Positions 7,347 to 16,764 of a DNA stretch of 39,139 nt are shown in pieces (position 1 is the first letter of the stretch; each line of letters begins with the position of its first letter). The notes under the pieces are model-generated. The model was not told the origin of the DNA, did not search any database, and saw only the letters and a program-made list of their open reading frames with translations. The translations under genes were made by a program, and so were the position numbers. The DNA is from Roseinatronobacter ekhonensis (GTDB lineage Bacteria; Pseudomonadota; Alphaproteobacteria; Rhodobacterales; Rhodobacteraceae). The stretch lies in NCBI RefSeq assembly GCF_900499075.1, contig NZ_UIHC01000031.1, positions 1 to 39,139 on the forward strand, given 5' to 3'.

Positions 7347-8456
7347 TCAGACTGGCACAAAGCCGCTTTCATCGACCGCCATTGCCCGCCCCGTGCGGGC
7401 TGATTCTTGCGCCGCCATGCCCATCAGAACTGCCCAAATCCCATCTTGCAACGTCACCTCGACAGCGCCCTGTCCGCGCACCACATCCGAAAAGCGCGCA
7501 TGCTGGTAGTAGGTTGACCCGTTGTGATCGCCCGCAGCGAGAAGCGCGGGATCGACAGGGATATCTATGGCGCGCGGACCTTTGGGCGCACGCGGGCTTT
7601 CGACCAGCTGTGGCACCGGCGGCGCGCCCAGATGCGCGGGCCAGAACCGGCCCGGTCCAGGCACAAGACATTCGATCTTGCCCTTGGGACCGACCGCCGC
7701 AATCTCCTCTTGGTAGCGCGCGCCCTCGGCAAACATGCACAATTCCAACATGGCCCGCGCACCGCCTTTGAAATCCACGATCACATAGGCATTGTCCCAA
7801 ATGTCGGGGGTCTGACCGTCGTAGCGCTCGTCCAGATGGTTCACGTCCTGCCCGCCCGACGCCATGATCCGCACCGGATCGTCTCGCAGCACATGGCGCA
7901 TCAGGTCAAAGAAATGGCAGCATTTTTCAACGAGCGTGCCGCCGGTTTGCGCGTTGAAACGGTTCCAGTCACCGACCTTTGGCAAAAACGGGAACCGATG
8001 TTCGCGGATAGTCAGCATCCTGATACCGCCCGTTGCATCCGCCGCAGCAGCAATCAGCGCAGCGACGGGGGGCATGTAACGGTATTCCATCGCGACCCAG
8101 ACCGGCGCATTCAAATTCAAAGCGCGCACCCGGTCCAGATCTGCCACGTCGGTGAATAGCGGCTTTTCGACCAGCACCGGGCGCGGGCGGCTTTGGGCAA
8201 TCTGCTCAAGCTGCGGCAGGTGCAGATGATTGGGGCTTGTGATGACAAGCGCATCCACATCTTCGGACGTCAAAACATCGTCCACGCTCGCGACAAAGCG
8301 CGCATCGGGCGCAATCTGCGCGGCCTGTGCCCGCATTTCCGCATCGGGCTCGAAAATTGCGCCCACATGCGCCCCTTCGATCAATGCGACGTTGCGCAGA
8401 TGTTCCTGCCCCATCATGCCACAGCCGATCATGCCGTAACAAATTGCCTTGCTCAT
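7347..8456 (-). CDS. Gfo/Idh/MocA-family NAD enzyme; candidate NAD+-dependent sulfoquinovosidase
   Basis: A 369-residue protein with an N-terminal Rossmann fold ('YGMIGCGMMGQEHL', residues ~7-20), the family lysine motif 'VLVEKP' (K98) and a C-terminal alpha/beta domain with 'GGTLVEKCCHFFDLMRH', whose H181 and D184 are in the usual catalytic positions. The fold normally oxidises sugars or cyclitols. A subgroup (GH188 type) uses transient NAD+-dependent oxidation at C3 to cleave sulfoquinovosides and occurs in sulfosugar clusters lacking a classical GH31 sulfoquinovosidase, including in Roseobacters. This gene ends an operon that has a sulfonate monooxygenase, an aldo/keto reductase and a sugar transporter but no GH31, so that role is plausible. 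It could instead be an ordinary sugar dehydrogenase. It begins 10 bases after the GntR gene. Confidence 0.7.
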   Translation of the reverse strand: MSKAICYGMIGCGMMGQEHLRNVALIEGAHVGAIFEPDAEMRAQAAQIAPDARFVASVDDVLTSEDVDALVITSPNHLHLPQLEQIAQSRPRPVLVEKPLFTDVADLDRVRALNLNAPVWVAMEYRYMPPVAALIAAAADATGGIRMLTIREHRFPFLPKVGDWNRFNAQTGGTLVEKCCHFFDLMRHVLRDDPVRIMASGGQDVNHLDERYDGQTPDIWDNAYVIVDFKGGARAMLELCMFAEGARYQEEIAAVGPKGKIECLVPGPGRFWPAHLGAPPVPQLVESPRAPKGPRAIDIPVDPALLAAGDHNGSTYYQHARFSDVVRGQGAVEVTLQDGIWAVLMGMAAQESARTGRAMAVDESGFVPV

Positions 8457-8466
8457 TTCCGTTTCC

Positions 8467-9174
8467 TTATTTCAAGCGCGAAACATAGCGCGCCACATTC
8501 GGGTCAAACCACGTCTCTGACACTTCTGCGCGCCGGTTGTCCTGACTCCAACTCAGACGCAGAATATGGCCTGCTACAGCACCGGGGCGCAGCCTGAAAC
8601 GCGTGGGCGCGAAATCGGGCACACACCCTGTGCCGATCCGGTCTTCGGCCCGCGCTATCCACAGTCCAAGCCGCGTGCGGTAATGCAGATAAAGCGATTG
8701 CGACAAATCCTCTGCACGCAAATCCTGCGCGTATGAAGCGTCGAGCCAGATCTCCTCGACTGCGGCGGGCTGGCCCGACAAAAGCCGCAAGCGGCGAATT
8801 CGGTGGGCATCGGGCGCGGCGCCGAAATCGGGCAGATGCGCGGGCTTGGGCCGACGCGCCACGTCCAGAACCTGCGCCGAGGGCAACCCCCCACCCGAAA
8901 CCAGTTCCAGCCGGAACAGTGCATAAATGCTTTCAACATCGTTCAGCGCCCGAATGTAGTTGCCCGAGCCCTGTACCCGCTCCAGCAAGCCCTTTTCTGC
9001 CAGATCCTGCAATGCCTTGCGCAACGTGCCCACTGCCACACCGAGATCGGCAGCCATCTCACGCTCCGGCGCAAGCCGTGCGCCATCCATCAACCGTCCC
9101 GCAGCGATATCGCGGATCAGCAGCTCGCTGATCTGCTGGTAGCGCGGCAAAGCCCCGCTGGGCGTGTCTTCCAT
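8467..9174 (-). CDS. GntR-family (HutC/UTRA) transcriptional regulator
   Basis: A 235-residue regulator. The N-terminal winged helix ('RYQQISELLIRDIAAGRLM' then 'LAPEREMAADLGVAVGTLRK', residues ~10-75) is typical GntR, including the wing 'ERVQGSGNYI'. The remainder, about residues 80-235, resembles a UTRA effector domain that binds a small ligand, often a sugar or sugar phosphate. The start at 9174 lies 5 bases past the ATPase stop, so it is co-transcribed with the transporter; a longer frame to 9246 would overlap the ATPase. No strong ribosome site is seen, so translation may be coupled. It probably controls its own operon, perhaps through the A+T-rich site near 15921-15945. Confidence 0.85.
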   Translation of the reverse strand: MEDTPSGALPRYQQISELLIRDIAAGRLMDGARLAPEREMAADLGVAVGTLRKALQDLAEKGLLERVQGSGNYIRALNDVESIYALFRLELVSGGGLPSAQVLDVARRPKPAHLPDFGAAPDAHRIRRLRLLSGQPAAVEEIWLDASYAQDLRAEDLSQSLYLHYRTRLGLWIARAEDRIGTGCVPDFAPTRFRLRPGAVAGHILRLSWSQDNRRAEVSETWFDPNVARYVSRLK

Positions 9175-9179
9175 GGCGC

Positions 9180-10289
9180 TCAGCCCACTGCCTCGCCCAG
9201 TCGCAGGCGCGGCTGCGCGATGCCATCGGGCCGAAAAATATGGCACAGGTCCGGGGTCACACCCAGAACCACTTGAGCACCACGCCCCAGCGCGGTCTGG
9301 CCCGTCATATGCACCGTAACATCCACGCCATCAGGGCCATGGCAGTATAGGTAGCTCTCGCCACCCAACTGCTCGATATTCTCGACGGTGGCCGTAATCC
9401 CGTTCTCGTCGGCGCCCACCGGGTGCAGGTGTTCGGGCCGGACGCCCAGCTCCACCTTGTTGCCGGGGTTCAGTCCCCGCCCGTCCACATGGGCCAGCAG
9501 GGCGCGTCCGGACGGATCGCGCAACTGCACACCCGACCCATCCGCCTCAACCACTTCGCAGGCGATGAAATTCATCCGGGGCGACCCGATAAACCCCGCC
9601 ACGAACTTGTTGACGGGGCGGTTGTACAAGTCGATCGGTGCGCCTTGCTGCTCTATCCGCCCGTCGCGCAGCACCACGATCCGGTCGGCCATCGTCATCG
9701 CCTCGACCTGGTCATGCGTCACATAGATCATCGTGTTGCCAATGCGCCGGTGCAGTGCCGCGATTTCGCCGCGCATGGTCACGCGCAATTCAGCGTCAAG
9801 GTTCGACAAGGGTTCGTCAAACAAGAACACCTTCGGCTCGCGCACCACCGCACGCCCAATCGCCACGCGCTGCCTCTGCCCGCCCGACAGCGCCTTGGGC
9901 TTGCGATCCAGATAAGGCTCCAGCTGCAACATCCGCGCGGCTTCGGCCACGCGGCTGTCGATCTCGGCCCGCGCCATGCGGATGTTTTCCAAACCGAAGG
10001 CCAGATTGGCCCGCACGCTCATATGCGGATAGAGCGCGTAAGTCTGGAACACCATCGCCAGCCCCCGCTCGCTCGCGCGCTGGTCATTGACGCGGTCGCC
10101 GCCAATCATCAGGTCGCCATCGGTAATCTCTTCGAGCCCCGCAATCATCCGCAGCAACGTGGATTTTCCGCACCCCGACGGGCCGACGAATACGCAAAAC
10201 TCGCCATCCGCTATTTCCAGATCAACCCCGTGGATCACCCGCACCGCGCCGTATTCCTTGACGATGCCGTTTAACGTCACTCCGGCCAT
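9180..10289 (-). CDS. Sugar ABC transporter ATPase (UgpC/MsmK type)
   Basis: The 369-residue ATPase of a CUT1 carbohydrate importer. The Walker A motif is 'GPSGCGKST' (residues ~37-45), the Q loop is 'VFQTYALYPHMSV', the ABC signature is 'LSGGQRQR', Walker B is 'VFLFDEPLSNLD' and the switch histidine is in 'VTHDQVEA'. The C-terminal 120 residues form the regulatory TOBE/OB domain of MalK-like proteins ('LGVRPEHL'). It probably powers the two permeases encoded just upstream in the same operon. The 103-base gap to the second permease holds a repeat-type hairpin element. Confidence 0.94.
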   Translation of the reverse strand: MAGVTLNGIVKEYGAVRVIHGVDLEIADGEFCVFVGPSGCGKSTLLRMIAGLEEITDGDLMIGGDRVNDQRASERGLAMVFQTYALYPHMSVRANLAFGLENIRMARAEIDSRVAEAARMLQLEPYLDRKPKALSGGQRQRVAIGRAVVREPKVFLFDEPLSNLDAELRVTMRGEIAALHRRIGNTMIYVTHDQVEAMTMADRIVVLRDGRIEQQGAPIDLYNRPVNKFVAGFIGSPRMNFIACEVVEADGSGVQLRDPSGRALLAHVDGRGLNPGNKVELGVRPEHLHPVGADENGITATVENIEQLGGESYLYCHGPDGVDVTVHMTGQTALGRGAQVVLGVTPDLCHIFRPDGIAQPRLRLGEAVG

Positions 10290-10312
10290 AACCCCTCCTC
10301 CCCTTCATTCTT

Positions 10313-10365
10313 GCCCCAAATATCCTGGGGGAGTCGCGCGGCAGCGCGACGGGGGCAAAGCCCCC
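10313..10365. repeat. REP-like triple-hairpin intergenic element
   Basis: Three adjacent inverted repeats lie in the gap between the second permease and the ATPase: CCCCA/TGGGG (10314-10318, 10326-10330), GTCGCGC/GCGCGAC (10333-10339, 10344-10350) and GGGGGC/GCCCCC (10351-10356, 10360-10365). The block, with its 'CCCAAATATCC' core, resembles a dispersed intergenic repeat common in Rhodobacteraceae genomes. It could slow mRNA decay or weaken read-through into the ATPase gene. Confidence 0.65.
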
Positions 10366-10392
10366 CAAACCATAGCCTTGCGCCGCAGGCGC

Positions 10393-11436
10393 TCATTTAA
10401 CGCCAGATTGGGCAATGCCCTGCGTGATGTATTTCTGCAAAAACGCGAACACGATGGTAATCGGCAGCAGCGTCAGCACGGTCATCGCCAAAAGGTTCGA
10501 CCAACTTGTCTGCAATTCGCCCTGAAACGAATTCAGCGCCAGTTGCAGCGTGAACACTTCAGAACGGTTCAGCACGATCAACGGCCACAGGAATTCGTTC
10601 CAGCGCCACATGACCGAGAAGATCACCAGAACCGCCAGCGCGGGCGCCGATAGCGGCAGCACGATCTTCCAATAGACCCGCCATTCGCTGGCATGGTCCA
10701 TGCGTGCGGCGTCCAACAGGTCATCGGGGATGGTCAGCATGTATTGTCGCAGCAGGAACACACCTGTCGGTGTCGCGATCGCAGGCCAGATCACGCCCCA
10801 ATGGCTGTTGACCATACCCATCTGGCTGATGACCAGAAACAGCGGAACCAGCGTGATCGTGGGCGGGATCATCAGTGTCGCGATGATCAGAACGAAGACC
10901 GCGTTGCGCCCGGTGAACTTGTATTTCGCCAATGCGAACGCCGCCATGGAATTGAACAGAACCGTCAGAACCGTGGCAACAATCGTGATGAAGGTCGAAT
11001 TCCAGAAATACAGCATGAAGTTGAAGCGCGAGAAGACTCCTGTGTAATTCTCTGTCGCAACTCCGAATTCGCGCAAGGGTTCGCGGTCGCCGATATTCAC
11101 GTTCAGCCGCTCTTCGGGATTGGCCGGGTCCACCATCTGCGCGTTCAGCCCGATACGGCGCACCTGCGCCAGCTCGCGCCCTGCATGTTCGCCGGCTGTA
11201 ACGGTGAACATCTGCAACGGCTGCTCATAGCCCGGAACGACGCGTTCAATCGGGGCAAGCGGCAGGAACTTGGGCGGATATTCCTGAAGCGCGGCTTCGG
11301 TCTTGAAGCTTGACAGCACCAGCCACAGCACCGGCCCCAGCATCAGGACCACGCCAAGCCCCAGAAACCCGAAGGCCAACCAATCGGTCAGGTCAAACCC
11401 GTGGCGGCCGCGCCGCCCCAATATCCAGCCAAACAT
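10393..11436 (-). CDS. Sugar ABC transporter permease, MalG type
   Basis: A 347-residue inner-membrane permease with six predicted helices. The cytoplasmic EAA loop that contacts the ATPase is seen as 'DAARMDHASEWRVYWKIVLP', with the glycine of the usual motif replaced. After the first helix (about residues 19-42) come the MalG-type 'YPPKFLPLAP' and then roughly 60 extra residues before 'ENYTGVFS', a larger periplasmic insertion than in ordinary MalG proteins. The start codon shares one base with the stop of the first permease (TGATG), so the two are translationally coupled. Confidence 0.93.
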   Translation of the reverse strand: MFGWILGRRGRHGFDLTDWLAFGFLGLGVVLMLGPVLWLVLSSFKTEAALQEYPPKFLPLAPIERVVPGYEQPLQMFTVTAGEHAGRELAQVRRIGLNAQMVDPANPEERLNVNIGDREPLREFGVATENYTGVFSRFNFMLYFWNSTFITIVATVLTVLFNSMAAFALAKYKFTGRNAVFVLIIATLMIPPTITLVPLFLVISQMGMVNSHWGVIWPAIATPTGVFLLRQYMLTIPDDLLDAARMDHASEWRVYWKIVLPLSAPALAVLVIFSVMWRWNEFLWPLIVLNRSEVFTLQLALNSFQGELQTSWSNLLAMTVLTLLPITIVFAFLQKYITQGIAQSGVK

Positions 11437-12422
11437 CAGTTATCCCCCGATTGTTTGCGCGTGGCGGCAAGCTGCATCATGGTCAGCACGAACAACACGC
11501 CCGCCATCAGAAGCGACGCCGCGGCCGCCAGCCCGTACAGGCGCGGGCGCGTCGCAAAGCCGACATCGTAGATATACTGGATCAGCAGCGTCGTGGCCGA
11601 TCCCGGCCCGCCGCCAGTCAGGACATAGATTTCGTCAAACGCCTGCACCGCGCGAATAACCGACAGCACCATGACCACAAGCATCGTCGGCATCAACAGC
11701 GGCAGGGTAATGCGCAGTAGTGACCGCCAGCGCGGCGTGCCGTCCATCTCGGCGGCCTCATAGACATCAGTCGGGATGGATTGCAGACCGGCCAGCAGGA
11801 TCAGCACATAGAACCCCATGTTGCACCAGATCGAGACGAACACGACCCAGAAAAAGGCCCAGTCAGCTTCCAGCAGCCAGTTGATCGTGCCAAACCCTGC
11901 GCCTTCCAGCCCCGCGTTCAATACGCCGTTACGCTGCAATATCCATTTCCAGATCAGCGCCACCACAACGGGCGACAACAGCACCGGGTAGAAGAATACC
12001 GCCCGGAAGAAGCCACGCAGCACAATGTCGCGGTTCAGGATCAGCGCGGTGATGAGCGAGAACAGGATCATGAACCCGACCTGCATCAGTACGAACCAGC
12101 CGGTATTGCCGACCGCGCGCCAGAACAGGTCGCGGTGGCAGGAATTTGGGTCAAAGTAGCTTTCGCAATCCAGCAGGCTGGCAAAATGCTCAGCGCCGAC
12201 AAAGGGACGGTCGTCCAGCAGAATACGGTCGCCGCCTGTCGTGGCAAAAACGAAGTTCAGGATAATCGGCAGGAAAGTGAACAGGCCGAAAATCAGCAGG
12301 TTGGGAAGCAGGAATACCCATGCGATCCGGCTTTGCCCGAAAAGCCGTTGCAGGGCCAGCATCGGGCGCTCGAACAGGTTGAACGCACCGTCATAAAGCT
12401 GAGTCGCGGTCGCTTTCAGCAT
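11436..12422 (-). CDS. Sugar ABC transporter permease, MalF type
   Basis: A 328-residue inner-membrane permease with six helices and an EAA loop 'EAAEMDGTPRWRSLLRITLP'. The first helix is at about residues 32-52. The periplasmic loop between helices 1 and 2 carries two cysteines ('LLDCESYFDPNSCHRD') that could form a disulfide. The start at 12422 follows AAAGGGGC; a longer frame to 12542 would run into the binding-protein gene. It lies 85 bases downstream of the binding-protein stop, separated by a strong stem-loop, and overlaps the next permease by one base. Confidence 0.92.
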   Translation of the reverse strand: MLKATATQLYDGAFNLFERPMLALQRLFGQSRIAWVFLLPNLLIFGLFTFLPIILNFVFATTGGDRILLDDRPFVGAEHFASLLDCESYFDPNSCHRDLFWRAVGNTGWFVLMQVGFMILFSLITALILNRDIVLRGFFRAVFFYPVLLSPVVVALIWKWILQRNGVLNAGLEGAGFGTINWLLEADWAFFWVVFVSIWCNMGFYVLILLAGLQSIPTDVYEAAEMDGTPRWRSLLRITLPLLMPTMLVVMVLSVIRAVQAFDEIYVLTGGGPGSATTLLIQYIYDVGFATRPRLYGLAAAASLLMAGVLFVLTMMQLAATRKQSGDN

Positions 12423-12450
12423 CTTGCGCCCCTTTCGCTGCTTGCAAGGA

Positions 12451-12482
12451 ACCGGCCCGCCCGCGCGAGCAAGCGGGCCGGT
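12451..12482 (-). promoter_or_regulatory. Intercistronic stem-loop between binding protein and permease genes
   Basis: A perfect 10-bp inverted repeat (ACCGGCCCGC at 12451-12460, GCGGGCCGGT at 12473-12482) with a 12-base loop and no T run. It lies in the 85-base gap after the binding-protein gene. Such stem-loops often protect the upstream mRNA, giving more binding protein than permease; partial termination is the alternative. Confidence 0.6.
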
Positions 12483-12507
12483 CACGTCGGGAGGACACCC
12501 TGACGGA

Positions 12508-13767
12508 TTACTGTGCCACAGCCTCTGCGATATCGGCGTCAAGGCGCGTCAAAGCATCGTCCAGGCTCAGTTCGCCAACAATCGCCTGGGTCAGACGCGC
12601 CGGTGTCGCGGTGAAGATGGCGCGGTTATTCGCGTAGCCCTGAAGCTGGTAGGCCGTATCCGAGAAGGTCGGAATAGAGGCCGCGAATACGGTCAGCGCC
12701 GCTTTTACATCGTCGCTGACACCCTGATAGTCGATGCCCTGCGCCTGCAATTCAGAATTGGCAGGGATGTTGCGGGTCTGCGCCAGAACGGCGGCCTGCA
12801 CATCGTCGCGCGCCATGAACTCGATCACCTTGCCGACAGCTTCGGGATGCTCGGTATGATTGAAACCGACAATCCCGGCGCCGCCCGGCATACCGGTGCA
12901 GGCTTCGGGCCCGCAGATGCCGCCGGTTGCAACCCAGTCAAACGCATCGCCGATGTCTCGCCCGAAGCGGCCGATCTGCCAGCTACCCGAATAATACATC
13001 ACAAGGTTGGCGTTGATGAATTCGGCAGCGGCGTCTTGATAGGTGCCGCCACCAGCCCCGGCCCAGACATCGCGCGCCATAGTGCCGTCTTCGTGCCATG
13101 CAACGAACTGCTCGGCAAAGTTGCGGAAGCCGTCATCCACCAGAATGGGGTCGCCATTCTCGTCGAAATAGGCCGCGCCATAAGACATGGCAGGACCTGC
13201 AAAACGGTGTCCTGTGCGATCCAGCGCCATGGCGAAATCGACACCCACTGCATCGCGCACCGCGCGGCTGGCTTCGGCCCATTCCGCAAAGGTCGAACCG
13301 GGCGCGGGCATCTCTACGCCGGCCTGATCAAACAGGGTTTTGTTGGCAAAACCGCCCGTCGCGGTCAGCTGGTCCACGATGTTGTAGATACCATCGGCGT
13401 TGTTGTCGCCAACGCGCGCCCATGCAAGGCTTTGGCCGTAGCGCGCCTCTATCGCGGCGGCATCGGACACATAGGGGCGCACGTCCAGCATGTAGCGCGC
13501 CAGACCACCATAATCGGTCACACGGGCCAGATCGGGGCCTTCGCCCACTTCCAACTGCACCGGAAGCGATTCGAGGATAGAGGCATAGGGCACCTCGTCC
13601 ACCGTCACGGTAATGCCGGGGTTATCCGCCTCGAACGCGGCAAGTTGCTCTTCCCAGACGGCGCATTCGCTGCCGTCCTGATAGCACATAAAGCGCAAGT
13701 CCTGCGCGCCCGCGGCACCTGCCGCAAGGATCAGGCCAAGGGCCGTTGTTGTCAGTGTTGTTTTCAT
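12508..13767 (-). CDS. Sugar ABC transporter substrate-binding protein
   Basis: A 419-residue periplasmic family-1 solute-binding protein. The signal peptide is MKTTLTTTALGLILAAGAAGA, with cleavage before QDLRF. The mature protein has the cluster-B outline: an 'AFEADNPGITVTVDEVPY' strand near the N-terminus, 'GEGPDLARV' and a late 'MPGGAGIVGFNHTEHPEAV' segment. Cysteine pairs (C28 with C35, and the CGPEAC stretch) could form disulfides. A GGGAGGA ribosome site precedes the start. In context the ligand may be a sulfoquinovose glycoside, but the ligand site cannot be read from sequence alone; another sugar remains possible. Confidence 0.92.
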   Translation of the reverse strand: MKTTLTTTALGLILAAGAAGAQDLRFMCYQDGSECAVWEEQLAAFEADNPGITVTVDEVPYASILESLPVQLEVGEGPDLARVTDYGGLARYMLDVRPYVSDAAAIEARYGQSLAWARVGDNNADGIYNIVDQLTATGGFANKTLFDQAGVEMPAPGSTFAEWAEASRAVRDAVGVDFAMALDRTGHRFAGPAMSYGAAYFDENGDPILVDDGFRNFAEQFVAWHEDGTMARDVWAGAGGGTYQDAAAEFINANLVMYYSGSWQIGRFGRDIGDAFDWVATGGICGPEACTGMPGGAGIVGFNHTEHPEAVGKVIEFMARDDVQAAVLAQTRNIPANSELQAQGIDYQGVSDDVKAALTVFAASIPTFSDTAYQLQGYANNRAIFTATPARLTQAIVGELSLDDALTRLDADIAEAVAQ

Positions 13768-13804
13768 CTTTTCCTCCCGTTGATGAATTTATCCGAACGC
13801 AGCG

Positions 13805-14704
13805 TCAGGCGACCTCCTGCCCGGATGCTGCTGTCCATAGTTCGAACCAGTCCTCCCGCGACAGGTTCACGCGCAGAGCATCGGAAATGCGTCCGATGCG
13901 GTTGAGCGAGTTGGTCCCCAAAACCGGCAGTATCCGCGCCGGGTGCGCCAAAAGCCATGCGATTGCGACGGCATCGGTGCCGACATCATGCGCCTTTGCA
14001 TAGGCGTTCATCAAGGGGCGAAGCCGCTGCGCTGCCGCATCCTCGCCAAACAATGCCCCGCCCGCCAATGGCGACCACGCCATCGGGGCCACGCCCAAGC
14101 GTTGCAGATGTGCCAGATCGCCATTTGTGAACGCGTCGCGGGCTAGCAGGCTTAGCTCTATCTGGTTGGTGCAAAGCGGCGTTGCCATCGCCGATTGCAA
14201 CAGATCCCAATCCCAAGGCCGGAAGTTCGATACGCCGACGGCGCGGACCTTACCCTCTGCCACCAGTGCATCCAGCGCCGCTCCCGTGGCGTGATGATCC
14301 ATGAACGGGTCGGGCCGGTGGATTAGTAGCAAGTCAATCCGGTCTGTCGCCATATGGGTCAAAGACGCCTCGACCGATGCGCGAATATGTTCGGGGCTGG
14401 TGTCGTAATGCTTCACACGGGCAGCGGCATATTTGCCGACAGGTGCCACGATGTCGCATTTCGTGACCAGTTCCACGCGGTCGCGCAGGCTGGGGGTGGC
14501 GCGGAATGCGGCCCCCAAGATCGCCTCGGCCTCGTAGCCGCCATAGATATCCGCCTGGTCCATGGTGGTGATACCTTGGGCCAGACAGGCCTCTATTTTG
14601 GCCTGCACATGCGCGGGGCCAGTGTCGGCATCATCGCCCAAGCGCCACATTCCGTAGACAAGGCGCGACAGGCTCAGGTCTTTGGTCAGGTTGATCCGTT
14701 CCAT
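13805..14704 (-). CDS. smoB: Aldo/keto reductase, YdhF-like; candidate 6-oxo-glucose reductase (SmoB)
   Basis: A 299-residue NAD(P)H-dependent TIM-barrel reductase. The catalytic tetrad is complete: D49 and Y54 in 'TTMDQADIYGGYEAE', K82 in 'LVTKCDI' and H129 in 'LLLIHRPDP'. The cofactor-binding end has 'PVLGTNSLNRIGRI'. The sequence resembles E. coli YdhF. Its start shares one base with the stop of the SsuD-like monooxygenase (TGATG), so the two are made together. In the sulfo-SMO pathway the monooxygenase product, 6-oxo-glucose, is reduced to glucose by an aldo/keto reductase (SmoB); that is the inferred role. The name rests on context, not on a comparison with known SmoB. A longer frame to 14824 lies inside the upstream gene and is not used. 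Confidence 0.68.
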   Translation of the reverse strand: MERINLTKDLSLSRLVYGMWRLGDDADTGPAHVQAKIEACLAQGITTMDQADIYGGYEAEAILGAAFRATPSLRDRVELVTKCDIVAPVGKYAAARVKHYDTSPEHIRASVEASLTHMATDRIDLLLIHRPDPFMDHHATGAALDALVAEGKVRAVGVSNFRPWDWDLLQSAMATPLCTNQIELSLLARDAFTNGDLAHLQRLGVAPMAWSPLAGGALFGEDAAAQRLRPLMNAYAKAHDVGTDAVAIAWLLAHPARILPVLGTNSLNRIGRISDALRVNLSREDWFELWTAASGQEVA

Positions 14705-15861
14705 CACACACGCTCCCCCACGCCCAAAGGCGTTGCCGGTGTTTCGCTTGGCACGCGGCCATATTCCTGCGGCAGCGAGCAGGTGTTCAGATGCGGCATA
14801 ACCAGCCGCCCGAATTGCGCGCATTCATCCAGATGCGGATAACCAGAGAAGATGAAGGCACGAATGCCCATCTTGCGGTAGCGTTCCAGCTTCGACAACA
14901 CTTGGTCGGCACTGCCCACCAGTGCCGCGCCACAGCCGGACCGTGCCCGCCCCACCCCTGTCCAAAGGTTAGGTTCGGTATATCCGAACTGGTCCGCCAA
15001 TTCGCGCGCACGCGATTGATGCGACACCCCAAGGCTGCCGCTGTCATGCGCGCGCTCGCGGATAAGCTGGCCGTATTCATCGTCCAGCTTGCTGACCAGA
15101 TGGTCGGCATACTCGCGCGCTTCCGCTTCGGTATCGCGGACAATGACATGCACCCGCAGCCCGTAATCCAGCGTTCTGCCATGCGCTTGTGCGCGGGCAT
15201 GGACGGCGCGCATTCGGTCCGCCAACTGGTCCTCTGTTTCGGGCCACATCAGGTAGACATCGCATTGCGCCGCGCACAGTTCCAGCGCGTGGGGCGAATA
15301 TCCCCCGAAATACAACAATGGACCGCCGTTTTGCTGGTAAGGCTTCGCCGGTGCGGTAGGCACGCCTTTGAACTGATAGATCTCGCCATCATGGTTGATT
15401 TCGTCGCGTTCCCACGCCTGACGCAGGATTTGAACGACTTCATGGCTGCGTTTGTAGCGATAGGCACTGTCGGCCACTTCACCGGGGAAATCGGACGAGA
15501 TGACATTCAACGTCAGCCGCCCTTTCAGCATATGGTCCAGCGTGGCGACTGTGCGCGCCAGCATGATCGGCTGCATTTCGCCACAGCGAATCGCGGCCAG
15601 CATGTTGATACGTTCGGTAACTTGCGACCCTGCCGCGACAAAGCTGAGCGTGTCCTGCCCCACCTGATAGCTGGACGGACACAGAATGTTGCGAAACCCC
15701 TGCGCCTCTGCGGATTGTAAAATCGCGCTGCAATGCTCCCAACTGGAGCGCAGATCGCCCTCTGGCGTTCCCAGAAAACGGTAATCATCCGAGCACAGTG
15801 CCGAGAACCACGACACTTCGGCTGCGTCCAGATCGCCCGAAGTTACCGGAACGATGGTCAT
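14704..15861 (-). CDS. smoC: SsuD-like FMNH2-dependent sulfonate monooxygenase; candidate sulfoquinovose monooxygenase (SmoC)
   Basis: A 385-residue luciferase-like monooxygenase. The SsuD sulfonate-site residues are conserved with a constant +10 offset: W206 ('VYLMWPE'), R236 and H238 ('LRVHVIVRDTEAEA'), R307 ('GVGRARSGCGAALVGS') and Y341 ('FSGYPHL'), matching SsuD W196, R226, H228, R297 and Y331. So it probably cleaves a C-S bond using reduced flavin and oxygen, releasing sulfite and an aldehyde. Placement at the head of a sugar transporter operon, coupled to an aldo/keto reductase, points to a sulfosugar such as sulfoquinovose rather than simple alkanesulfonates. A GGGAGGAAA ribosome site supports the start. 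No flavin reductase is encoded nearby. Plain alkanesulfonate monooxygenase is the main alternative. Confidence 0.72.
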   Translation of the reverse strand: MTIVPVTSGDLDAAEVSWFSALCSDDYRFLGTPEGDLRSSWEHCSAILQSAEAQGFRNILCPSSYQVGQDTLSFVAAGSQVTERINMLAAIRCGEMQPIMLARTVATLDHMLKGRLTLNVISSDFPGEVADSAYRYKRSHEVVQILRQAWERDEINHDGEIYQFKGVPTAPAKPYQQNGGPLLYFGGYSPHALELCAAQCDVYLMWPETEDQLADRMRAVHARAQAHGRTLDYGLRVHVIVRDTEAEAREYADHLVSKLDDEYGQLIRERAHDSGSLGVSHQSRARELADQFGYTEPNLWTGVGRARSGCGAALVGSADQVLSKLERYRKMGIRAFIFSGYPHLDECAQFGRLVMPHLNTCSLPQEYGRVPSETPATPLGVGERV

Positions 15862-15920: not shown

Positions 15921-15945
15921 ATTTATAAATCAATAATGTATCAAT
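15921..15945 (-). promoter_or_regulatory. A+T-rich promoter/operator candidate for the sulfosugar-type operon
   Basis: Sixty bases before the monooxygenase start lie a -10-like TATAAA on the minus strand (15922-15927) inside the palindrome ATTTATAAAT, and two direct ATCAAT copies (15929-15934 and 15940-15945) spaced exactly 11 bases, one helical turn. The surroundings are GC-rich, so the patch stands out. It is a plausible binding site for the operon's own GntR regulator. Confidence 0.4.
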
Positions 15946-15992: not shown

Positions 15993-16007
15993 TTAGAATT
16001 ATTCTAA
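15993..16007 (+). promoter_or_regulatory. Candidate Irr ICE box upstream of the ZIP gene
   Basis: A 15-base palindrome TTAGAATTATTCTAA, matching the ICE pattern TTAGAA-N3-TTCTAA bound by the iron-response regulator Irr in alphaproteobacteria. It ends 16 bases before the ZIP start codon, so a bound regulator would sit over the transcription start or early leader. The palindrome is seen directly; the regulator is inferred. Confidence 0.6.
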
Positions 16008-16023
16008 TAATGGGATAGCCAGG

Positions 16024-16764
16024 ATGACCGAGCCAACCCTTCTGATCGTATTCGTCGCCGCCCTTGTCACAGCATTGGCAACTGGGCTGGGTGCGCTGCC
16101 ATTGCTTGCCGTTCGCTCTATGTCAGGCCGCGCCTTGGCGTGGGGCAATGCCCTTGCTGCGGGTCTGATGCTGGCGGCCAGCGTGACACTCGTGATGGAA
16201 GGGTTCGAATTGTCGGGCCCGCGCACCATTGGCGGCATTGTTCTGGGGGTTGTCGCGATCTGGCTGGTCAAGAAATTGCTGGACCGCCGGGGCGAGGTGT
16301 CACTGGGCGACCTGCAAGGTGCCGATGCGGCAAAAGTCTTGATGATTATGGGCGTCATGACGGCCCATTCCGCCGCCGAAGGGATTGGCGTAGGTGTTGC
16401 TTTTGGCGGGGGGCGCCCCTTGGGCGACCTGATCACACTGGCGATTGCATTGCACAACGTCCCCGAGGGGCTTGCGATAGCACTGATCATGGTGCCGCGC
16501 GGGGCCTCTGTCGCGAAGGCCGGCTGGTGGGCCGTGGTTTCGTCGCTACCGCAGCCACTGCTTGCCGTACCCGCCTTTTTGTTCGTTTTGTATTTCGAAC
16601 CGGTGCTGCCGGTTGGCCTTGGGCTGGCCGCGGGCGCGATGCTGTGGATGATCTTTTCAGAGCTGCTTCCCGAAGCGCAGGAAGAGGCCGAAAGCTCTTC
16701 CATCGGTGTCATCGTCACGCTGGCATTTGCTGCCATGATGGCCGCGACATTGCTGCTGGGGTAA
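16024..16764 (+). CDS. ZIP-family divalent metal transporter
   Basis: A 246-residue integral membrane protein with about eight hydrophobic helices. The ZIP metal-site motifs are seen as 'AHSAAEGIGVGVAF' in one helix and 'LHNVPEGLAIAL' in the next; a later 'SELLPEA' is also typical. ZIP proteins move Zn, Fe or Mn into the cytoplasm; the bacterial ZupT type has a broad range. An ICE-like palindrome just upstream suggests iron-dependent control, so iron or manganese may matter more than zinc. The ribosome site is weak. It is a single gene, convergent with asmA after an 8-base gap. Confidence 0.9.
   Translation: MTEPTLLIVFVAALVTALATGLGALPLLAVRSMSGRALAWGNALAAGLMLAASVTLVMEGFELSGPRTIGGIVLGVVAIWLVKKLLDRRGEVSLGDLQGADAAKVLMIMGVMTAHSAAEGIGVGVAFGGGRPLGDLITLAIALHNVPEGLAIALIMVPRGASVAKAGWWAVVSSLPQPLLAVPAFLFVLYFEPVLPVGLGLAAGAMLWMIFSELLPEAQEEAESSSIGVIVTLAFAAMMAATLLLG

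Follow-up and report, generated by a model that had tools for sequence, protein, structure and literature searches.

A stretch of 39,139 nucleotides (nt) from Roseinatronobacter ekhonensis (contig NZ_UIHC01000031.1, assembly GCF_900499075.1; the whole stretch is called the window below) carries eight genes, at 7347-15861, that very probably form a sulfolytic operon for the import, cleavage, and desulfonation of sulfoquinovose (SQ), a sugar found in the sulfolipids of plants and algae, by the oxidative desulfonation pathway known as sulfo-SMO. We favor this reading because the monooxygenase (SmoC) and reductase (SmoB) match their solved relatives far above members of other families, because the model of the alkanesulfonate monooxygenase SsuD fails on SmoC, and because a GH188 sulfoquinovosidase lies in the same operon. 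Both the pathway and this kind of operon are known, GH188 having been published in Roseobacter sulfo-SMO clusters (PMC10755693), and the operon itself is ordinary. New here are an importer other than SmoF, an unlinked flavin reductase (SmoA), and a conserved repeat that is predicted to be an operator.

The monooxygenase matches PDB chains 7olf (749 bits, E = 9e-225) and 7oh2 (730 bits, E = 6e-219), against 204 bits (E ~3e-59) for SsuD (1nqk/1m41), and it scores 250.1 bits on the NCBIfam SsuD model TIGR03565, which has a cut-off of 518.2. The database names are generic; we take 7olf and 7oh2 to be the published SmoC structures, and 7bbz and 7bby those of SmoB. For comparison, we assembled 80 named loci (the best 80 of 576 SmoC relatives). 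Among these are 19 loci of the Agrobacterium type (SmoA-SmoI), whose binding proteins belong to the SmoF group and to which the window is 82%-84% identical in SmoC, 64%-67% in SmoB, and 59%-66% in the GntR regulator. The representative of the SmoF group, from L020, has as its best match the "Sulfoquinovosyl glycerol-binding protein SmoF" 7nbz (E = 7e-257). The closest named SmoC proteins come from a Rhodobacteraceae metagenome-assembled genome (96%) and Roseibaca sp. Y0-43 (95%). An earlier sequence-only reading of the operon had considered that the monooxygenase might cluster with SsuD and not SmoC; given these scores, the missed cut-off, and the identity to the Agrobacterium-type loci, it does not, and we rejected SsuD as its identity. 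This verdict is based on bit scores and the SsuD model, and not on the SmoC tree, since the SsuD outgroup is single and sits on a saturated branch; the tree was built quickly, and 13 of its 79 inner branches are starred. The five sulfonate-site residues named in that reading (W206, R236, H238, R307, and Y341) are present and stand opposite matching residues of SsuD chain 1nqk in an alignment read by eye; the SsuD numbering is presumably 10 lower. The genome has no SmoC/SsuD match at E ≤ 1e-5 other than that of the window. In a family sample of 149 genomes, this one included, SmoC (E ≤ 1e-100) occurs in 61, again including this one, and SsuD at the same threshold in only one of the 61.

The reductase matches 7bbz (435 bits, E = 2e-129) and 7bby (E = 7e-129), the next other sequence reaching 215 bits (E = 1e-62). 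Its PDB relatives begin at an internal ATG at 14704, giving a protein of 299 amino acids (aa) and a 1-nt overlap (TGATG) with the smoC stop; by this comparison the 339-aa open reading frame (ORF) is an artefact of an upstream ATG start. The overlap of the two genes described from sequence alone exists, but its great length came from the start-site artefact. In seven rhizobial loci (L011, L025, L026, L031, L038, L040, and L049), which form one clade on the SmoC tree, smoC is 82%-84% identical to that of the window and no smoB match lies beside it; smoC is followed there by a convergent ABC (ATP-binding cassette) importer, an 843-aa protein (no Pfam match, as checked in L025), KduI, and GH88.

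The last gene, previously called a Gfo/Idh enzyme, is on sequence grounds a GH188 NAD+-dependent sulfoquinovosidase of SqgA type. The nearest solved chain, 8zn9 (544 bits, E = 1e-162), is named just "Oxidoreductase, putative"; it is followed by SqgA (8qc3/8qc2; 388 bits, E = 3e-115), and the next match has 60 bits (E = 2e-15). All nine catalytic, substrate-binding, and sulfonate-binding residues of the ArSqgA active site, as set out in PMC10755693, are kept, the three sulfonate-binding ones among them: Lys107, Tyr136, Glu163, Arg166, Leu170, Lys172, Glu189, His193, and His321 correspond to K98, Y125, E152, R154, L158, K160, E177, H181, and H311. The window enzyme thus shares with SqgA (8qc2, 8qc3) even the Leu at a position that is variable in PMC11465081. 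The counterparts of Lys107, Glu163, and His321 were mapped by motif only; residue numbers of the printed SqgA chain are those of PMC10755693 plus 13, and Glu163 would become 164 by that offset. We also looked for a GH31 sulfoquinovosidase outside the window and rejected that reading: the one GH31 protein found in the genome scores 232 bits against alpha-glucosidase vs. 104 bits against YihQ/SmoI.

GH188 (E ≤ 1e-60) is found in 74 of the 149 family genomes. It co-occurs with SmoC in 60 (P = 9e-27, Fisher test, phylogeny ignored), and 56 of the 61 genomes with SmoC have the two within 20 kb of each other. In 54 of these 56, GH188 and SmoC lie on opposite strands, whereas the window genome, together with G037, has both on one strand; among the named loci, L002, L003, and L053 do so as well. 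This one-strand layout may already be drawn in Figure S17 of PMC10755693. GH188-type genes lacking a SmoC match occur in 14 of the 149 genomes (G001, G007, G014, G015, G040, G057, G059, G064, G074, G098, G099, G126, G129, and G143) and perhaps belong to other SQ pathways. GH188 matches in eight genomes (G039, G058, G065, G080, G081, G099, G132, and G145) contain one or two in-frame stop codons, which may reflect decayed genes or match-end effects.

The ORF list has the eight genes head-to-tail on the minus strand from 15861 down to 7347, exactly the span given in the sequence-only reading. Pfam identifies them in order as Bac_luciferase, Aldo_ket_red, SBP_bac_1, two BPD_transp_1, ABC_tran plus TOBE_2, GntR plus UTRA, and GFO_IDH_MocA, which bears out the CUT1 transporter, GntR, and Gfo/Idh genes described there as following the reductase gene. 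The arrangement is not due to chance, because the identical order recurs in L002 and L003, in L138 with an added flavin-reductase match on the opposite strand, and, for its leading part, in L001, L004, and L006, whose stretches end early.

The importer differs from that of Agrobacterium. The binding protein shares 21% identity with SmoF (E = 4e-5), and SmoF is absent from its 15 PDB matches at E ≤ 0.001. A Foldseek search with its structural model (mean predicted local distance difference test score of 84) returned generic sugar-binding proteins, with no SmoF among the 50 matches listed. We therefore rejected orthology with SmoF; a profile-profile probability of 97 places the two in a common superfamily. 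Of the three proteins proposed earlier for alignment with Agrobacterium SmoC, SmoB, and SmoF, the monooxygenase and reductase match their solved relatives far above other families, and the binding protein is not SmoF.

Around smoC in the 80 named loci, we find SmoF-type importers in 19, TRAP (tripartite ATP-independent periplasmic) importers in 25, and window-type ABC importers in 20. All 19 SmoF-type loci carry GH31. GH188 accompanies 22 of the 25 TRAP loci (L009 and L080 have no sulfoquinovosidase in the stretch, and L021 is a distant TRAP gene adjoining a SmoF/GH31 locus) and 16 of the 20 window-type loci (L066 has both GH188 and GH31, and three stretches end early). Among loci without a recognized importer, eight have GH31 and eight GH188; L014 has neither sulfoquinovosidase nor importer. 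The TRAP and GH31 labels were given by eye and confirmed on one representative each (DctM, DctP, and DctQ; GH31), the GH31 representative matching the YihQ/SmoI-type chains 5ohy, 5ohs, and 7ofx at 1188 bits. On the SmoC tree the importer labels need eight changes, a count that leaves out 20 of 82 rows as unlabelled, includes bystander importers, and is subject to weak branch support. A limited search of open papers on sulfoquinovose and TRAP transporters gave nothing on topic. A PF03601 membrane protein gene (L005, 15960-17105; Pfam run on L005 only) belongs to a protein cluster found in 14 of the 80 loci, all but one of which have it close to the TRAP importer, and has a homologue in the window genome (C134:69440-70402, 46% identical to the L054 copy); we would guess at a role in sulfite or sulfate export.

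Window-type binding proteins (E ≤ 1e-40) occur in 25 of the 149 family genomes, 21 of which have SmoC (P = 2e-6, Fisher test, phylogeny ignored). We compiled a set of 45, to which SmoC-anchored loci contributed 20, family genomes 24, and the window one, and labelled their neighbors by Pfam in part and tblastn for the rest. Twelve are smo-embedded, 15 have mannonate dehydratase (UxuA), a Gfo/Idh set, or both as neighbors, 14 lie beside GH88, and four have other surroundings. Since 29 of the 45 thus lie with UxuA/Gfo-Idh or GH88 genes, the importer looks to have been recruited from an acidic-sugar importer family. We rejected the family as smo-specific, as 11 rhizobial importers near smoC sit with GH88/KduI and that of L073 with UxuA. 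The window protein and six others, all smo-embedded, form a separate, long-branched group (support 100/100). A starred set of 13 surrounds it, its other six members being four of the UxuA/Gfo-Idh context and those of L070 and L053, which are labelled smo-embedded and may only adjoin smo loci. The smo-embedded label needs at least five changes on the midpoint-rooted tree, and the window protein has clade-specific residues at three switches (I106, N129, and N337). A cassette that combines UxuA and a CUT1 importer with Gfo/Idh genes, often three of them, recurs in Rhodobacteraceae (L073, L132-L137, L139, and L142-L144; L135 lacks a UxuA match and L134 has one Gfo/Idh gene) and possibly serves oxidative glucuronide use.

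Nearly all of these loci have a direct repeat before smoC. Alignment upstream of smoC in seven close loci reveals a conserved block around ATTGAT-N5-ATTGATTTA, and 107 of 110 SmoC loci have ATTGAT-N5-ATTGAT (two mismatches or fewer) in the 200 nt preceding smoC, perfectly in 100 and with one mismatch in seven, its start at -89 to -62 relative to smoC (the 110 include the window, L084, and G037, L085, and may contain near-duplicates). Extended by one base, the pattern matches within 350 nt in 78 of the 80 named loci, compared with 0 of 80 after one mononucleotide shuffle each. Across the 3.9-Mb genome, the 18-base pattern occurs perfectly once, in front of smoC, and with one mismatch at two other places (C74 and C123); the reversed-pattern control gave no sites. 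The rest of the 1.66 Mb of locus stretches holds 20 perfect sites. Eighteen of them, at -927 to -968 on the opposite strand, belong to SmoF-type loci; such a second site, about 930-970 nt upstream, is present in 18 of the 19 SmoF-type loci (not L019) and, in the four inspected, immediately precedes the ATPase gene with which the importer/GH31 unit begins. The 22 TRAP/GH188 loci have the smoC site only (up to one mismatch).

A GntR orthologue is found in 75 of the 80 named loci and in the examined stretch of 103 of the 110 SmoC loci, and every one of these 103 has the motif within 900 nt at one mismatch or less. One locus missed at 200 nt, L098, has it directly before GntR. The motif occurs without GntR in L001, L004, L006, L084, and L085, window-clade stretches that end before the GntR gene; in this clade the regulator gene is inside the operon and the site remains before smoC. 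The repeat is thus probably the operator of the GntR/UTRA regulator, as judged from its distribution. In a limited search of open papers, we found no account of the regulation of smo genes (GntR, SmoD, or operator), and nothing on sulfoquinovose and Roseibaca.

From these observations we infer the enzyme activities, the importer substrate, and the sign of regulation as follows. The CUT1 importer would take up sulfoquinovosyl glycerol and/or SQ, and the GH188 enzyme would cleave the glycoside in the cytoplasm, with NAD+ transiently oxidizing C3. Using FMNH2 and O2, SmoC would cut the C-S bond to release sulfite and 6-oxo-glucose, which SmoB would reduce to glucose. The GntR/UTRA protein, whose gene is the seventh in the operon that it would control, probably acts as a repressor bound to ATTGAT-N5-ATTGAT until a sulfosugar releases it. 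Reduced flavin would come from a reductase encoded elsewhere in the genome. SmoA-like matches occur in 64 of the 80 named loci, nearly always right after smoB (after smoC in L025). Outside the window the genome has two Flavin_Reduct and three FMN_red genes; the Flavin_Reduct gene on C97, alone of the two compared with linked SmoA, is 38%-56% identical to it and the nearest genomic candidate.

Several points weigh against the sulfo-SMO reading. No SmoA flavin reductase is among the eight window genes; the C97 candidate sits among RNB-domain, Alph_Pro_TM, and BPD_transp_2/ABC genes, with no operator upstream (best site, four mismatches); and the binding protein is not SmoF, its wider family lying mostly beside acidic-sugar genes. 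This apparent origin of the importer, the UxuA (L073, L132-L134, L136, L137, L139, and L142-L144) or GH88/KduI neighbors of its relatives, and the location of the binding protein within 20 kb of SmoC in only six of the 25 family genomes that have it could indicate that the operon serves another C6-anionic sugar (sulfofucose, another sulfonated hexose, or a glucuronide) in addition to or instead of SQ. We think this improbable: SmoC, SmoB, and GH188 are all SQ-type and share one operon, the GH188 protein keeps its sulfonate-binding residues, and the seven window-group binding proteins stand apart from the rest of the family. A sulfur-scavenging alkanesulfonate system of SsuD type is scarcely credible; SmoC and SsuD have the luciferase-like superfamily and the sulfonate-site residues in common, but the score is far under the SsuD cut-off and the partners are a sugar-type importer, an aldo/keto reductase, and GH188. 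The sulfo-SMO calling rule of PMC13372026, which takes SmoB plus SmoC with hits within 10 ORFs and does not require SmoA, also picks out the window operon. The presence of SmoC/SmoB-type enzymes and a GH188 sulfoquinovosidase in one operon supports the sulfo-SMO reading originally drawn from the sequence.

The repeat is AT-rich and keeps an almost constant spacing to smoC, as a promoter element would. That it is such an element and not the GntR operator is nevertheless unlikely, since the two loci whose stretches are not cut short and show no GntR gene in the part examined (L009 and L066) are the two without the repeat within 900 nt, and since it recurs on the other strand in the SmoF-type loci.

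Relative to described systems, the window has the same repeat before smoC as the Agrobacterium-type loci. All 19 of the latter carry the SmoF-type binding protein, GH31, and a linked SmoA-like reductase, whereas the window has none of these; it has another importer, GH188, and one operon in place of two divergent units. With the Roseobacter-clade clusters of PMC10755693, in which GH188 is reported to be near-universal in marine bacteria, it shares the combination of SmoC, SmoB, and GH188.

Together, these data suggest two aspects of sulfo-SMO biology that seem not to have been described before, and we give the pair an even chance of being right. In the one, the SQ importer of the window clade would have been recruited from a hexuronate/glucuronide importer family, with a change from C6 carboxylate to C6 sulfonate, and this window-type ABC importer would join SmoF-ABC and TRAP in a set of at least three that can replace one another, each tending to accompany a particular sulfoquinovosidase. 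In the other, one 17-bp direct repeat read by GntR/UTRA would be the smo operator across Rhizobiales and Rhodobacterales; if so, it could be used to predict the smo regulon. The predicted operator also marks SQ use at the DNA level and allows an uncharacterised regulator to be tested directly. Estimates of annual sulfoquinovose production stand at ~10 billion tons (PMC10755693, PMC12890257). Because importer and sulfoquinovosidase change while SmoC stays constant, many SQ users would be missed if they were called by SmoF or GH31.

Table 1. Features of the putative sulfo-SMO operon (window coordinates)
Feature	Position	Strand	Basis
smoC, predicted FMNH2-dependent sulfoquinovose monooxygenase, 385 aa	14704..15861	-	PDB 7olf/7oh2 matches; SsuD model failed; five site residues
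smoB, predicted aldo/keto reductase (6-oxo-glucose reductase), 299 aa from ATG at 14704	13805..14704	-	PDB 7bbz/7bby
CUT1 solute-binding protein, not SmoF	12508..13767	-	SBP_bac_1; 21% to SmoF; contexts and tree
CUT1 permease 1, start uncertain, ATG at 12422 possible	11436..12542	-	PF00528
CUT1 permease 2	10393..11436	-	PF00528
MalK/UgpC-type ATPase	9180..10289	-	ABC_tran + TOBE_2 + OB_MalK; NF008653 470 bits, cut-off 432
GntR/UTRA regulator, likely start ATG at 9174	8467..9246	-	PF00392 + PF07702
sqgA, predicted GH188 NAD+-dependent sulfoquinovosidase	7347..8456	-	PDB 8zn9, 8qc3/8qc2; nine active-site residues
ATTGATACATTATTGATT, predicted operator of the GntR regulator, before smoC	15928..15945	-	107/110 SmoC loci; sole perfect genome site

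Scans for promoters and terminators gave 5 vs. 3.3 expected and 10 vs. 8.7 expected, respectively. The operon is flanked by a ZIP-type metal transporter gene (16024-16764, plus strand) and by genes matching FtsW and MurG (7252-4974, minus strand), all of which are also neighbors at L002 and L003. Between smoC and the ZIP gene lies an inverted repeat, TTAGAAT-N-ATTCTAA (15993-16007, counted by hand), whose arms are the same in L001-L003 and at which a metal regulator might act on the ZIP gene.

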